In this document: one piece after another, positions 10,280-23,570 of the stretch
Position numbering within the stretch: position 1 is the stretch's first letter
How the letters are laid out: each line of letters starts with the position of its first letter
Assembly (NCBI GenBank): GCA_003171255.1
Contig: PMYK01000023.1
Span: 68,767 to 113,944, forward strand
DNA: 45,178 bases
Source: Chloroflexota bacterium
Lineage (GTDB): Bacteria > Chloroflexota > Limnocylindria > Limnocylindrales > CSP1-4
Reading direction: 5' to 3'
The notes under the pieces: model-generated
Told to the model about the DNA's origin: nothing
The model's database searches: none
What the model saw: only the letters and a program-made list of their open reading frames with translations
Translations under genes and position numbers: made by a program

Positions 10280-10390
10280 CCAACCTGGCACAGTACGCGC
10301 TGTCGGGTAGCCGTCTTACAGGCGCCCGAAATGGACTGGTGGAGGCCGCTCGTCTCAGCTCCGGCTCGGGAGCATGCGGGCCGGCCCCTA

Positions 10391-10418
10391 TTGACCCGTT
10401 CTCAGGGCTGAGTACGAT
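10391..10418 (+). promoter_or_regulatory. Promoter of the HTH-nucleotidyltransferase operon
   Basis: TTGACC (10391-10396) and TACGAT (10413-10418) with a 16-base spacer form a plausible sigma70-type promoter. The predicted start of transcription is at or near 10426. It lies inside the operator array, so occupancy would block transcription. Confidence 0.5.
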
Positions 10419-10425
10419 TGTCGTC

Positions 10426-10476
10426 ATGCCTGAGAACGACTGTTCCATCTCTGAGAACGATCGTTCTCGTGTTTGA
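10426..10476 (+). CDS. Possible 16-codon leader peptide made of operator sequence
   Basis: An ATG seven bases after the -10 box opens a 16-codon frame, MPENDCSISENDRSRV. Its PEND and SEND pieces are encoded by the repeated operator units. The stop (10474-10476) overlaps the GTG start of the HTH protein at 10469 in another frame. If the mRNA is leaderless this would be translated first and could couple translation to the main gene. It may be a coincidence of the repeats. Confidence 0.25.
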   Translation: MPENDCSISENDRSRV

Positions 10477-11557
10477 GAACAGACCCTTCATCGAACTGAC
10501 CCTCGGCCGGTCCAGCGTCCGGCAGCGCATCCTCGCGCTGCTAATGAGTGCCGCCGACGGCCGACTCCATCTCCGTGAGATCCAGCGCCGAGCGAACACC
10601 AGCCCGGGGACGGCCAGTCGCGAGTTAGCCAGGCTGGTGGCGGCCGGTCTCATCGTTCGCGAGGCAGAAGGCAACCAGGTCTACTTCCGGGCTTCCACCT
10701 CGCCATTCGCAACGATACTAAGGACGCTGCTGGTCGCGATGCCCGAACCGGAGGTCGGACCGCGTGCGCCGCGCCTGCCCAGGGCGAAGTCCAGCCCGGC
10801 ATCTGCAGCAGCGGCGGTGACCGAGCCGAACCCCGCAGCGGCTGTGACCGAGCCGAGCCCGGCGCCGGGAACTGGGCAAGCGAAGCCGTCGGCTGGCTCA
10901 ACCGAATCGGATGTGGCGGGCGAAGCCGTCGTCGAGACTGCTCGTCGGGACATCACGGTGGCCGCCGGAGAAGCCGCGGCCACTGCGCTGCCGGCGGCCA
11001 CGGAAGCGGCTCCGCGAATCATCCGACCTCGGCCGGTAGACCAGGCCTCGACCGCCCTGCCGACCGAGACCGACGTCCAGAGCGTGCCCACCGCGCCGGC
11101 GGGTATGGCTCCGGGCGTGGAGCTGGGGCCGACGGCGGTACCTCCGAGCACTCTGCCGCCGAGGTTAACTCCCCGCTCCGCAAGACCAACCGGCGCAAGA
11201 CCAACCGGCGCCGCGCCCGCCGCCACACGCCCGGCAGCTCCAGACCCGGAGGGAATGCAAATCGCCGGGCGGCTGGCCGAGTCCGTCCGTTCGATGTACC
11301 GCGACGCGGTCCAGGGCATCTACCTGTACGGCCCACGGGCAGCTGGTCCCGCCCCTGACTCAGACGTGGAGACGATCATCGTCCTCGATCACGTCGATCA
11401 ATACGGCGCCGAGCTCGAACGAACCAGCCACCTCTACGCCGCGCTGTCGTACGAGCTAAACCTCGTAGTCAGCCGCATCTTCGTAACCGAGGCCGACTGG
11501 AGTGGCGGGTCCGATGGGACCTTGCCCCAGATGCGAGCGAAGGCGGTGGCCGTGTGA
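10469..11557 (+). CDS. Winged-helix regulator fused to a degenerate MNT-type nucleotidyltransferase domain
   Basis: 362 residues. Residues about 10-85 form a winged helix-turn-helix (SSVRQRILALL, HLREIQRRANTSPGTASREL, LVAAGLIVREAEGNQVYFRA), a fold common in MNT antitoxin fusions. A long Ala/Pro/Thr-rich linker runs to about residue 260. The C-terminal 100 residues resemble a minimal nucleotidyltransferase (GIYLYGPRAAGPAPDSDVE). The usual GS is GP (288-289) and the usual DxD is Asp299-Val-Glu301, so catalysis is doubtful. The GTG at 10469 puts the HTH near the N-terminus as in related proteins; the frame is open to 10418, and no Shine-Dalgarno is seen. It overlaps the next gene by GTGA. Likely a DNA-binding antitoxin-like regulator; function inferred. 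Confidence 0.7.
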   Translation: MFENRPFIELTLGRSSVRQRILALLMSAADGRLHLREIQRRANTSPGTASRELARLVAAGLIVREAEGNQVYFRASTSPFATILRTLLVAMPEPEVGPRAPRLPRAKSSPASAAAAVTEPNPAAAVTEPSPAPGTGQAKPSAGSTESDVAGEAVVETARRDITVAAGEAAATALPAATEAAPRIIRPRPVDQASTALPTETDVQSVPTAPAGMAPGVELGPTAVPPSTLPPRLTPRSARPTGARPTGAAPAATRPAAPDPEGMQIAGRLAESVRSMYRDAVQGIYLYGPRAAGPAPDSDVETIIVLDHVDQYGAELERTSHLYAALSYELNLVVSRIFVTEADWSGGSDGTLPQMRAKAVAV

Positions 11558-11949
11558 CCGCCCGCAGCGCTCAACTTATCGACGGTGCGAACCGAGCCCT
11601 GGCCTCGGCCCAGCGGGAGCTCGAGGCCCACGATCTGGAGACCGCCGCGGAGCGGGCCTGCGTGGCTATGCTCCGCCTCGCGAAGGCCTGCCTCGATGTC
11701 GACGGCCTATCACCCGGGCCGGCGCAGGCCGTCTGCTCACAGTATGGCCAGCACTTCGTGCAGACCGGCCGGATGTACTCGGCCTACTTCCGATGGCTCC
11801 TCGATGCCGCTGATCTGCGCAAGGCCGCGGCCAGCGACATCGCCGCCCCGATCGACTACGACGCCGCGGCCACAGCTGTCGAGCGGGCCGAGATCTTCCG
11901 AGACGCAACGACTCGCTTCGTGGCGCGGAGCCGCGCATGGCCGACGTGA
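11554..11949 (+). CDS. HEPN-domain-like protein, probable partner of the MNT protein
   Basis: 131 mostly helical residues with the HEPN layout: an N-terminal helix (LASAQRELEAHDLETAAERA), a second helix (ACVAMLRLAKACL), the loop-helix QYGQHFVQTGRMYSAYFRW, and a last helix with LRKAAASDIAAPIDYD. MNT/HEPN gene pairs are known toxin-antitoxin modules in which HEPN is an RNase. Here the RX4-6H catalytic motif is not visible: after Arg89 positions 94-96 are Ser-Asp-Ile. The protein is either an inactive or altered HEPN, or uses other residues. It starts in a 4-base overlap with the MNT gene and its end overlaps the following gene by 13 bases. Confidence 0.6.
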   Translation: MTARSAQLIDGANRALASAQRELEAHDLETAAERACVAMLRLAKACLDVDGLSPGPAQAVCSQYGQHFVQTGRMYSAYFRWLLDAADLRKAAASDIAAPIDYDAAATAVERAEIFRDATTRFVARSRAWPT

Positions 11950-12380
11950 TCGGCTTCTACGTCCGAGGAGGGCTGGCTGGTCCCGAGGCGGAGCTGCTCG
12001 ACCATCCCTACACGGACCTCATCGGTGCCGCGCTCCGGTGGAAGAGGTACCGAGGCCGGACCGCACCCTGGCTGTCCGGACATTGCGAGCTTTGCGACGC
12101 CACCTTCACAGAGGGCGGCTCGCCCGGCCTGACCTCCGGCTACTCCGTCTTGGGCGGCGGCCCGGCCGGTCAGGACGACCACGTCTGGATCTGCGCCGTC
12201 TGCTACGAACTCGGTCGTGACCGCTTCTGCTGGACCGTGCTCGACACGCGTGATGAGGCCGCACAACCACTCGGTCTGATCGATGCGGCGCTCGGGCTCT
12301 ATGTGCTGCCGGCGGTTGATGACGCCTATCGCTCCGACGGGAGCCTGATAGCCGTCGCTCCCCTGCCCCGCTCCCGGTGA
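11937..12380 (+). CDS. Hypothetical protein with two CxxC pairs (zinc-ribbon-like)
   Basis: 147 residues, family unknown. Cys50-x2-Cys53 (HCELCDATF) and Cys86-x2-Cys89 (ICAVCYE) are spaced as in a zinc ribbon; aromatic residues surround both knuckles. There is no signal peptide or membrane segment. It begins inside the HEPN gene and ends in a 4-base overlap with the glycosylase gene, so it is the third cistron of a tightly coupled operon. A nucleic-acid- or protein-binding accessory role is only a guess. Confidence 0.65.
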   Translation: MADVIGFYVRGGLAGPEAELLDHPYTDLIGAALRWKRYRGRTAPWLSGHCELCDATFTEGGSPGLTSGYSVLGGGPAGQDDHVWICAVCYELGRDRFCWTVLDTRDEAAQPLGLIDAALGLYVLPAVDDAYRSDGSLIAVAPLPRSR

Positions 12381-12961
12381 CCCCGGACGATCGACCGCGG
12401 TGCTGGTGGCCCAAGGGGTCGGGCGCTGCCGACCCCTTGATGCTGGCCTACCACGACACCGAATGGGGCATTCCCTCGTCGGACGACCGCGACCTCTTCG
12501 AGCGCCTCGCGTTGGAAGGTTTCCAGGCGGGCCTGGCGTGGATCACGATCCTGCGGAAGCGCGAGGCCTTCCGGCGGGCGTTCGATGGCTTCGATCCGAG
12601 GCGCGTCGCGGACTACGATGAGTCGGACCGGGCCAGGCTGCTCGAGGATGCAAGCATCGTCCGCAACCGCGCCAAGATCGACGCCACGATCGGCAACGCA
12701 GCCGCATTCCTCGAGGTGGCGGCCGAGCACGGCGGCTTCGCCGCCTATCTCGCCGGCCAGCTTCCCCGATCGGCGCCAACGCTGCCGGCTACCGCGACCT
12801 TGGCGGAGGTCCCGGCCTCGACCGCGGAGTCCGACACGCTGGCAGCCGACCTGCGCCGACGCGGATTCCGGTTCGTGGGGACGACGATCGTATACGCGTT
12901 CATGCAGAGCGTCGGTCTGGTCGACGACCACCTGCCCGCGTGCTTCCGATATCGCGGCTGA
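12377..12961 (+). CDS. tag: DNA-3-methyladenine glycosylase I
   Basis: Base-excision-repair enzyme that removes 3-methyladenine from alkylated DNA; 194 residues. Landmarks match the family: CWWPKGSGAADPLMLAYHDTEW, LEGFQAGLAWITILRKRE, and RGFRFVGTTIVYAFMQSVGL. The zinc-snap ligands appear present: Cys9, His26 in AYHD, and the C-terminal His and Cys in DDHLPAC. The GTG start overlaps the preceding stop. It is the last gene of the operon behind the operator array, linking that unit to DNA damage. Confidence 0.93.
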   Translation: MTPDDRPRCWWPKGSGAADPLMLAYHDTEWGIPSSDDRDLFERLALEGFQAGLAWITILRKREAFRRAFDGFDPRRVADYDESDRARLLEDASIVRNRAKIDATIGNAAAFLEVAAEHGGFAAYLAGQLPRSAPTLPATATLAEVPASTAESDTLAADLRRRGFRFVGTTIVYAFMQSVGLVDDHLPACFRYRG

Positions 12962-22955: not shown

Positions 22956-23570
22956 ATGGCTCGACGCGTGTACAACTTCGAGAAACCCGACCGATTCGTT
23001 GCCGGCACGGTTGGCCAGCCCGGCAGCCGCACCTTCTACCTTCAGGCCCGCGATGGGACCCGAATCGTGTCGGTGGTGGTGGAGAAGGTTCAAGTCGCGC
23101 TGCTTGCCGAGCGCCTGACCCAGCTGCTGGCCGAGGTTCGAGCGCGCGGCGCGAACGTTCCACAGGAGGCCGCCCTGGCGGACGTCGACTCGGCACCCCT
23201 GGACGAGCCGCTCAACGAGACCTTCCGAGTCGGGACCATGGCAATCGTCTGGAATGGCGAGGATGAATCGATCGTCGTCGAGGCTCGGGCCATGAGCGAG
23301 GACGCCGAGGAGGGTGACGAGGACGTAGAGGACGCCGAGGAGGGTGACGAGGACGTAGAGGACGCCGAGGAGGGTGACGAGGACGTAGAGGACGACGCCG
23401 ATGACGAGTCGGATGTCGTTCGGGTTCAACTGGCACCGCACAAGGCCCTGGCGTTTGCCCAGCGGGCCCTCGAGATCGTGGCGGCGGGACGACTGCCGTG
23501 CCCATTCTGCGGTCAACCCCTCAACCCGGAGGGCCACATCTGCGCTCGGCGCAACGGCTTCATGCACTGA
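22956..23570 (+). CDS. DUF3090 family protein with an acidic tandem-repeat insert
   Basis: 204 residues. The N-terminus MARRVYNFEKPDRFVAGTVG and GSRTFYLQARDG and the C-terminal LPCPFCGQPLNPEGHICARR are typical of DUF3090 proteins; the last part is zinc-finger-like. Residues 115-144 are three exact copies of EDAEEGDEDV from a 30-bp DNA repeat, an insertion of unusual acidity between the two conserved halves. GGAGG lies upstream of the ATG at 22956. It is the first of a pair with the SCO1664-like gene, an association seen in Actinomycetota and Chloroflexota. Function unknown. Confidence 0.9.
   Translation: MARRVYNFEKPDRFVAGTVGQPGSRTFYLQARDGTRIVSVVVEKVQVALLAERLTQLLAEVRARGANVPQEAALADVDSAPLDEPLNETFRVGTMAIVWNGEDESIVVEARAMSEDAEEGDEDVEDAEEGDEDVEDAEEGDEDVEDDADDESDVVRVQLAPHKALAFAQRALEIVAAGRLPCPFCGQPLNPEGHICARRNGFMH
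23298..23394 (+). repeat. Perfect 30-bp tandem repeat, three copies, inside DUF3090
   Basis: Units begin at 23298, 23328 and 23358, each starting GAGGACGCCGAGGAGGG, with 7 bases of a fourth unit. The copies appear identical, so the repeat is recent or kept uniform, and stay in frame because 30 is divisible by three. Copy-number change would alter the length of the acidic insert. Confidence 0.9.

Follow-up and report, generated by a model that had tools for sequence, protein, structure and literature searches.

An array of inverted half-sites over the promoter and start codon of a wHTH-nucleotidyltransferase gene in Chloroflexota is a probable autoregulatory operator

The half-site array at the start of a wHTH-nucleotidyltransferase gene in a Chloroflexota genome is probably an autoregulatory operator. 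It would be bound by the wHTH protein whose gene it overlaps, rather than act as a general LexA switch. We studied it in a stretch of 45,178 nucleotides (the window); the array and the operon described below lie on its forward strand. At the window locus and in its relatives, inverted repeats of the operator type cover the promoter of the regulator gene itself. We favor autoregulation because the sites accompany the gene, with few exceptions, throughout the genus and at three loci elsewhere. Likewise, in two relatives of another genus, where the half-sites are of the GTAC type, the protein starts differently and its recognition helix has two differences. The wHTH matches ArsR/SmtB repressors. 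Finally, in two genomes (G002 and G015b) the wHTH, the repair gene tag and the first operator stay while the nucleotidyltransferase (NTase) and HEPN parts are gone.

Layout of the array

A preliminary description of this DNA reported operator-like units, their spacing, a promoter and a GTG start, and all of them are present. The five unit starts are spaced 22, 22, 21 and 22 bases. A second full core, GAACGACTGTTC, lies at 10434-10445. Partial units start at 10388, 10410 and 10475, and the first of them consists only of the right half, GTTCTC. From the -35/-10 spacer to codons 3-4 of the gene, GAGAAC and GTTCTC half-sites alternate, with roughly one per helical turn. This supports the proposed helical phasing and the overlap with promoter and start. 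Cooperative binding along the array would be plausible.

The promoter is TTGACC-16-TACGAT (10391-10418). Its -35 element is of the TTGA type in 19 of 21 loci, and the -10 element is TACGAT or TACGCT in 20 of 21 (TACATA in G039). There are two outer operators. O1, GTTCTC-N6-GAGTAC (10398-10415), lies in the -35/-10 spacer, with its right half overlapping the -10 element. O2 (10463-10480) has GTTCTC and GAGAAC on either side of GTGTTT. It spans the main start codon, a GTG at 10469, and encodes (M/V)xEN. The first internal unit (10420-10437) presents a degenerate left half, GTCGTC, and the right half GAGAAC, with the ATG of a putative leader frame at its center. The second, GTTCCA-N5-GAGAAC (10442-10458), follows 21 bp past the first. 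The exact 16-bp palindrome GAGAACGATCGTTCTC (10453-10468) corresponds to an alternative pairing, GAGAAC-N4-GTTCTC, which takes its halves from two adjacent units.

Five exact half-sites fall within the 103 bp of the array. Other 103-bp stretches of the window, with starts more than 150 bases away, hold at most two. With one mismatch allowed the array count is 6, which two other window stretches match. When the region was shuffled 5000 times, 27 shuffles attained this count; for 1.1 kb, 9 of 2000 did. GAACN4GTTC occurs four times in the window (0.39 expected), and two of these are inside the array. The exact palindrome GAGAACGNNCGTTCTC is found at this locus only in its own genome; with up to two mismatches, it shows no excess there over the reversed-pattern control (9 vs 10 forward). 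Conservation among relatives, not the shuffles, is the strongest evidence for the array.

We also searched for a wider regulon. A search with one mismatch was too loose for use. Exact GTTCTC-N6-GAG[A/T]AC sites elsewhere vary between genomes, apart from some short shared sequences, and a wider regulon was not retained. One 18-mer with an exact site of this type, away from the locus, is common to G000, G006 and G009. The three exact sites found away from the locus in the window's own genome are probably coding, since each lies under a stop-free frame of at least 420 codons. No second operator was found within the operon in 21 loci, from 60 to 2000 bases past the start (less at contig ends). Separately, the window holds six GAGGAC hexamers at 23282-23421, in steps of 21 and 9 bases, perhaps a repeat in a coding sequence.

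Conservation among relatives

The gene is present in 19 of 21 genomes of the genus, at 20 loci, and the other two (G006 and G019) gave weak matches only. G115 and G117 came from a search of the class, across 177 genomes. Counting these two and G039, the upstream region can be read at 23 loci, 20 in the genus and three elsewhere in the family (locus G039:C32 was left out, its gene start being unclear). Named relatives are Chloroflexi MAGs at 19 of the 20 loci, and the remaining one matches Pseudomonas weakly. Since the loci are related, their counts are not independent events.

We scored each half-site out of 6, accepting both A and T at the variable base. The left half of O1 reaches at least 5 in 22 of the 23 loci (only 4 in G013), and its right half does so in all 23. 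For O2, the left half reaches at least 5 in 20 loci; it is weak in G007 and shifted by one base in G015b and G002. The right half of O2 scores 6 in 23 of 23, with GAGTAC in G115 and G117. Across related species, the arrays contain from 4 to about 12 half-site positions. Relatives that retain the genes and have lost the repeats, a case raised in the preliminary description, do not occur in the loci compared.

G115 and G117, which belong to another genus, present a change in both the sites and the protein. Each of the four half-sites of G115 reads GTACTC or GAGTAC, as do three in G117, where the left half of O1 is GTATTC. Their proteins start with SEY, not FEN, with two differences in the recognition helix (TSPGTASREL against TSAGTAAREL). 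Single GTAC-type halves occur in the genus too, so this co-variation is weaker than a clean switch. More precisely, the right half of O1 is GAGTAC or GGGTAC in every locus, and the left half of O2 is of the GTAC type in G013. The N4 partner of the left O2 half is also of this type in G009, G013, G003 and G004. GTAC-type halves are seen in G039 as well. We therefore take the joint change in half-sites and protein start as supportive, not decisive.

Some loci show partial forms. In G015b and G002 (L067 4046-4459; L068 from 4045), the gene of a short wHTH protein stands immediately before tag, and O1 is kept; NTase and HEPN were not found in these two. In G006 (L227, G006:C48, reverse strand), an O1-like site and a leader start remain, and the wHTH-NTase gene was not found. 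Its leader frame extends into an apparent HEPN tail, followed by a match to the first 40 residues of tag only. G019 has tag without the wHTH-NTase gene, and no array was seen by eye in the 320 nt before it.

Pairing of the half-sites

The half-sites can be paired in two ways. We lean slightly toward GTTCTC-N6-GAGAAC as the likely dimer site, over GAGAAC-N4-GTTCTC. The half-sites at the two ends are strong (means of 5.83 and 6.00 out of 6), and their outside N4 partners fall below the background (1.43 and 1.13, background 1.65), which favors N6. G012 and G016, which retain O1 and O2 without good N4 partners, also count for it. Pairing by N6 leaves zero orphan half-sites. An N4 partner scoring at least 5 exists for the right half of O1 in 6 of 23 loci. 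Against N6, the left half of O2 has such a partner in 19 of 23. The spacing in the N4 reading is also constant, whereas the gap in the N6 reading varies from 5 to 6. According to the part of PMC8790569 consulted, the N4 form also matches the 12-2-12 geometry of ArsR/SmtB sites.

The protein and its operon

The main gene (10469-11557) encodes a wHTH of the ArsR/SmtB fold, a long low-confidence linker and a degenerate minimal nucleotidyltransferase, as assigned from Pfam, AlphaFold2, Foldseek and relatives. AlphaFold2 predicts two confident domains joined by the linker, with an overall mean pLDDT of 68.7. The wHTH blocks (residues 11 to 90) have means of 74-94. Residues 1-5 are below 50, so conservation of their codons more likely reflects the DNA than the protein structure. 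The best Pfam model for the wHTH is MarR_2 (E 4e-7), and other HTH models match too. Foldseek places CzrA, SqrR, HlyU and other ArsR/SmtB proteins at the top (best E 1.1e-4). The fold is thus shared with these repressors. However, the wHTH scores 37 bits against the curated ArsR-family model NF033788 (cut-off 55), MarR_2 is its top Pfam model, and it is fused to an NTase. The arrays, with their many half-site positions, are a further difference.

The second domain of the window protein gave no direct match to a Pfam NTase at E 0.001. It aligns with relatives carrying NTP_transf_2 (L199 and L200). The GS...DxD motif is incomplete in the genus: the second Asp of DxD is Glu in all 18 rows that have the domain. 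DxD is intact in L199, L200 and L201, from other genera.

The partner gene (11554-11949) encodes a HEPN protein (PF05168; E 5e-4, 20.7 bits against a Pfam cut-off of 22). Its relative in L199 scores 41.3 bits. The HEPN gene adjoins the main gene in 17 of 20 regions (L050-L069) and was not found in L067, L068 and L069. Spacings of the form of the HEPN RNase motif, R-x4-6-H, occur in 16 of 21 HEPN proteins at differing places, none of them common to all. The HEPN gene is followed by an ORF with CxxC pairs (11937-12380), which matches nothing in Pfam or NCBIfam at E 0.001 and is present in 7 of the 20 regions. The last gene (12377-12961) is tag, for DNA-3-methyladenine glycosylase I. The operon does end in a DNA-repair gene, as had been proposed: the Pfam match has E 8e-70. 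Against TIGR00624, the protein has E 6e-63 and 211.7 bits, below the curated cut-off of 232.5. We found tag in 15 of 20 regions and did not find it in L055, L057, L061, L062 and L069, where some of the ends are contig ends. It was not found beside L199-L201. The regions and loci where tag was not found, and G019 with tag and no main gene, count against the autoregulatory reading.

Compared with known systems, the wHTH-nucleotidyltransferase/HEPN operon, here with tag, resembles a variant of the kind of the PADLOC candidate PDC-M05. The window wHTH matches PDC-M05A (E 1.7e-15; 2.8e-27 for the relative in L199), and the window NTase matches PDC-S09 (E 5.4e-13). M05 is described, in the portion of PMC12988326 consulted, as a nucleotidyltransferase with a HEPN protein whose antiviral role is unconfirmed. 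In contrast, the HEPN proteins of the window and L199 have no PADLOC hit. The genus also differs in its degenerate NTase motif, in the operator array with a leader frame before the gene and in tag, often found after it. That portion of PMC12988326 does not mention any of these features for M05.

The HEPN-MNT toxin-antitoxin pairs are similar in order: NTase first, HEPN second, with a 4 nt overlap, and L199 shares the Pfam families. However, the window NTase bears its own wHTH. The excerpt consulted of PMC2701414 considers it unlikely that the HEPN-MNT antitoxin regulates transcription, and supposes that a DNA-binding part acts in trans. For such pairs, domestication into regulatory enzymes has been proposed (PMC3710099, in part). 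Among the literature matches listed, no title or opening of an abstract describes the array or the wHTH-NTase/HEPN/tag operon.

A mechanism would follow from the autoregulatory reading. The ArsR/SmtB-type wHTH dimers may bind neighboring sites cooperatively, on one face of the DNA. Bound dimers would stand in the way of RNA polymerase and also cover the start codons. Only release of the repressor would allow expression of the wHTH-NTase and HEPN genes, together with tag in genomes that have it there. The HEPN partner and the NTase-like domain linked to the wHTH may carry the signal to the repressor.

A possible leader frame through the repeats

A putative leaderless ORF of 16 codons (MPENDCSISENDRSRV) plus TGA crosses the array at 10426-10476, with an 8 nt overlap between its stop and the main start. 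In the genus, an ATG or GTG lies 7-8 nt past the -10 element at 20 of 20 loci. At 17 of them the frame ends in a TGA with the same 8 nt overlap; these frames have 9, 16, 22, 23 or 30 codons. Among the remaining ones, two are in frame with the main gene and that of G007 ends 14 nt before the main start. An SD-like 4-mer precedes the main start in only 2 of the 20 loci, which speaks for the leader. G007 (L062), with the early-ending leader frame, is one of these two, which may be chance.

The internal units are 21 bp apart (seven codons, two turns) in all 17 countable steps. This count excludes three loci: the units are decayed in G012 and G016, and G007 has one merged step of 43. The steps between right halves before the leader start are 21 or 22, and the last step is 22 in the readable loci, except G015b and G002. 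Without an inserted unit, as in G039, G115 and G117, it is the main start that lies 8 nt past the -10 element.

It is possible that the array also encodes a leader. The mRNA of the genus would begin at or beside the AUG, and ribosomes would read a short leader made of operator repeats. They would then terminate at the TGA that overlaps the main start and reinitiate at that start. Leaderless transcripts are reported to be common in mycobacteria (PMC4633059, in part).

The alternative for the leader part only is that the frame arose passively as operator units were duplicated and is untranslated. This is a realistic possibility, without being the reading that we would choose. The unit steps of 21 or 22 bp mean that the frame may follow from geometry, and G007 breaks it. 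However, the first center holds a start codon in 20 of 20 loci, against 1 of 17 at the other internal centers (a GTG; 1 of 18 with G007). Moreover, in G012 and G016 the frame is still open despite the decayed internal operators.

A bolder scenario, which we consider rather unlikely, joins these elements. A former HTH-nucleotidyltransferase/HEPN pair might have been domesticated as a sensor of damage or nucleotides that controls tag. The array would at the same time encode a leaderless leader peptide, with two turns and seven codons in each added unit. Ribosomes would read through the repressor sites on the way to the repressor gene.

Relation to the LexA box

The link to LexA made in the preliminary description, from the form GAACN4GTTC, looks like a fair lead. 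This form is indeed the core of the host LexA box. All 16 readable lexA promoters (in L070-L086) contain it, in 14 cases as TCGAAC (16 of 19 loci were read; L075, L087 and L088 are cut or partial). In other genera of the class, the core was found in all six readable lexA promoters, G115 included (six of seven were read; G039 is cut). No lexA was found in G117. A RecA-like gene also carries the core in the six loci looked at (L113-L118). We take this gene for imuA from the ImuB-like frame that follows it in L114. Of lexA and recA, the two genes named in the preliminary description for a check of the core, only lexA showed it. We found no GAACN4GTTC within 1.2 kb upstream of recA in the 15 loci scanned, from which L091 and partial recA hits were left out.

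Considering this shared core, the wHTH protein could be the main regulator, with LexA also acting on at least one internal unit where the core is intact. Such joint control seems unlikely to us. AGAAC-N4-GTTCT is common to array units and to the LexA-type boxes before the RecA-like gene. Nevertheless, the flanks differ and the core is not conserved across the 23 loci.

An array read mainly by LexA, with the operon in the SOS regulon and LexA on the GAAC-N4-GTTC units, is improbable. It would explain why the core is identical to that of the host lexA promoters and why a repair gene lies in the operon. However, only 13 of the 23 orthologous arrays contain the core. Of 46 array halves, 34 have G at position -2, while 42 of 44 LexA-box halves have T or C there. 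G115 keeps the core at lexA and has none in its array. The end half-sites have no N4 partner, and the array form itself is unlike the Gram-positive-type LexA operators. In addition, a pattern scan for ArsR/SmtB 12-2-12 sites gives the predicted site TGAACA-GA-TGTTCA (PMC8790569, in part). It shares the core of the N4 units, and the encoded protein belongs to the same fold family.

Control at the RNA level, in which the palindromes form leader-mRNA hairpins (GUUCUC and GAGAAC around the start codon) that mask or present this codon, is very improbable: four folded leader RNAs are more stable than their shuffles (z from -2.65 to -3.21), but a palindromic array is expected to outfold its own shuffles anyway, the predicted transcript start lies downstream of O1, which is conserved to the same degree as O2, and the arms of O2 are often incompletely complementary (GTCCTC, GTTCCC or GTACTC against GAGAAC).

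Implications

The comparison with the host LexA box carries a caution, namely that GAACN4GTTC alone is insufficient to identify LexA sites. If the autoregulatory reading is true, the HTH-nucleotidyltransferase/HEPN group, a candidate for the defense or toxin-antitoxin type, would gain a DNA target. A repair gene would be its output in many species. The related species, with their range of half-site positions, would offer a natural series for the study of operator copy number, phasing and cooperativity.
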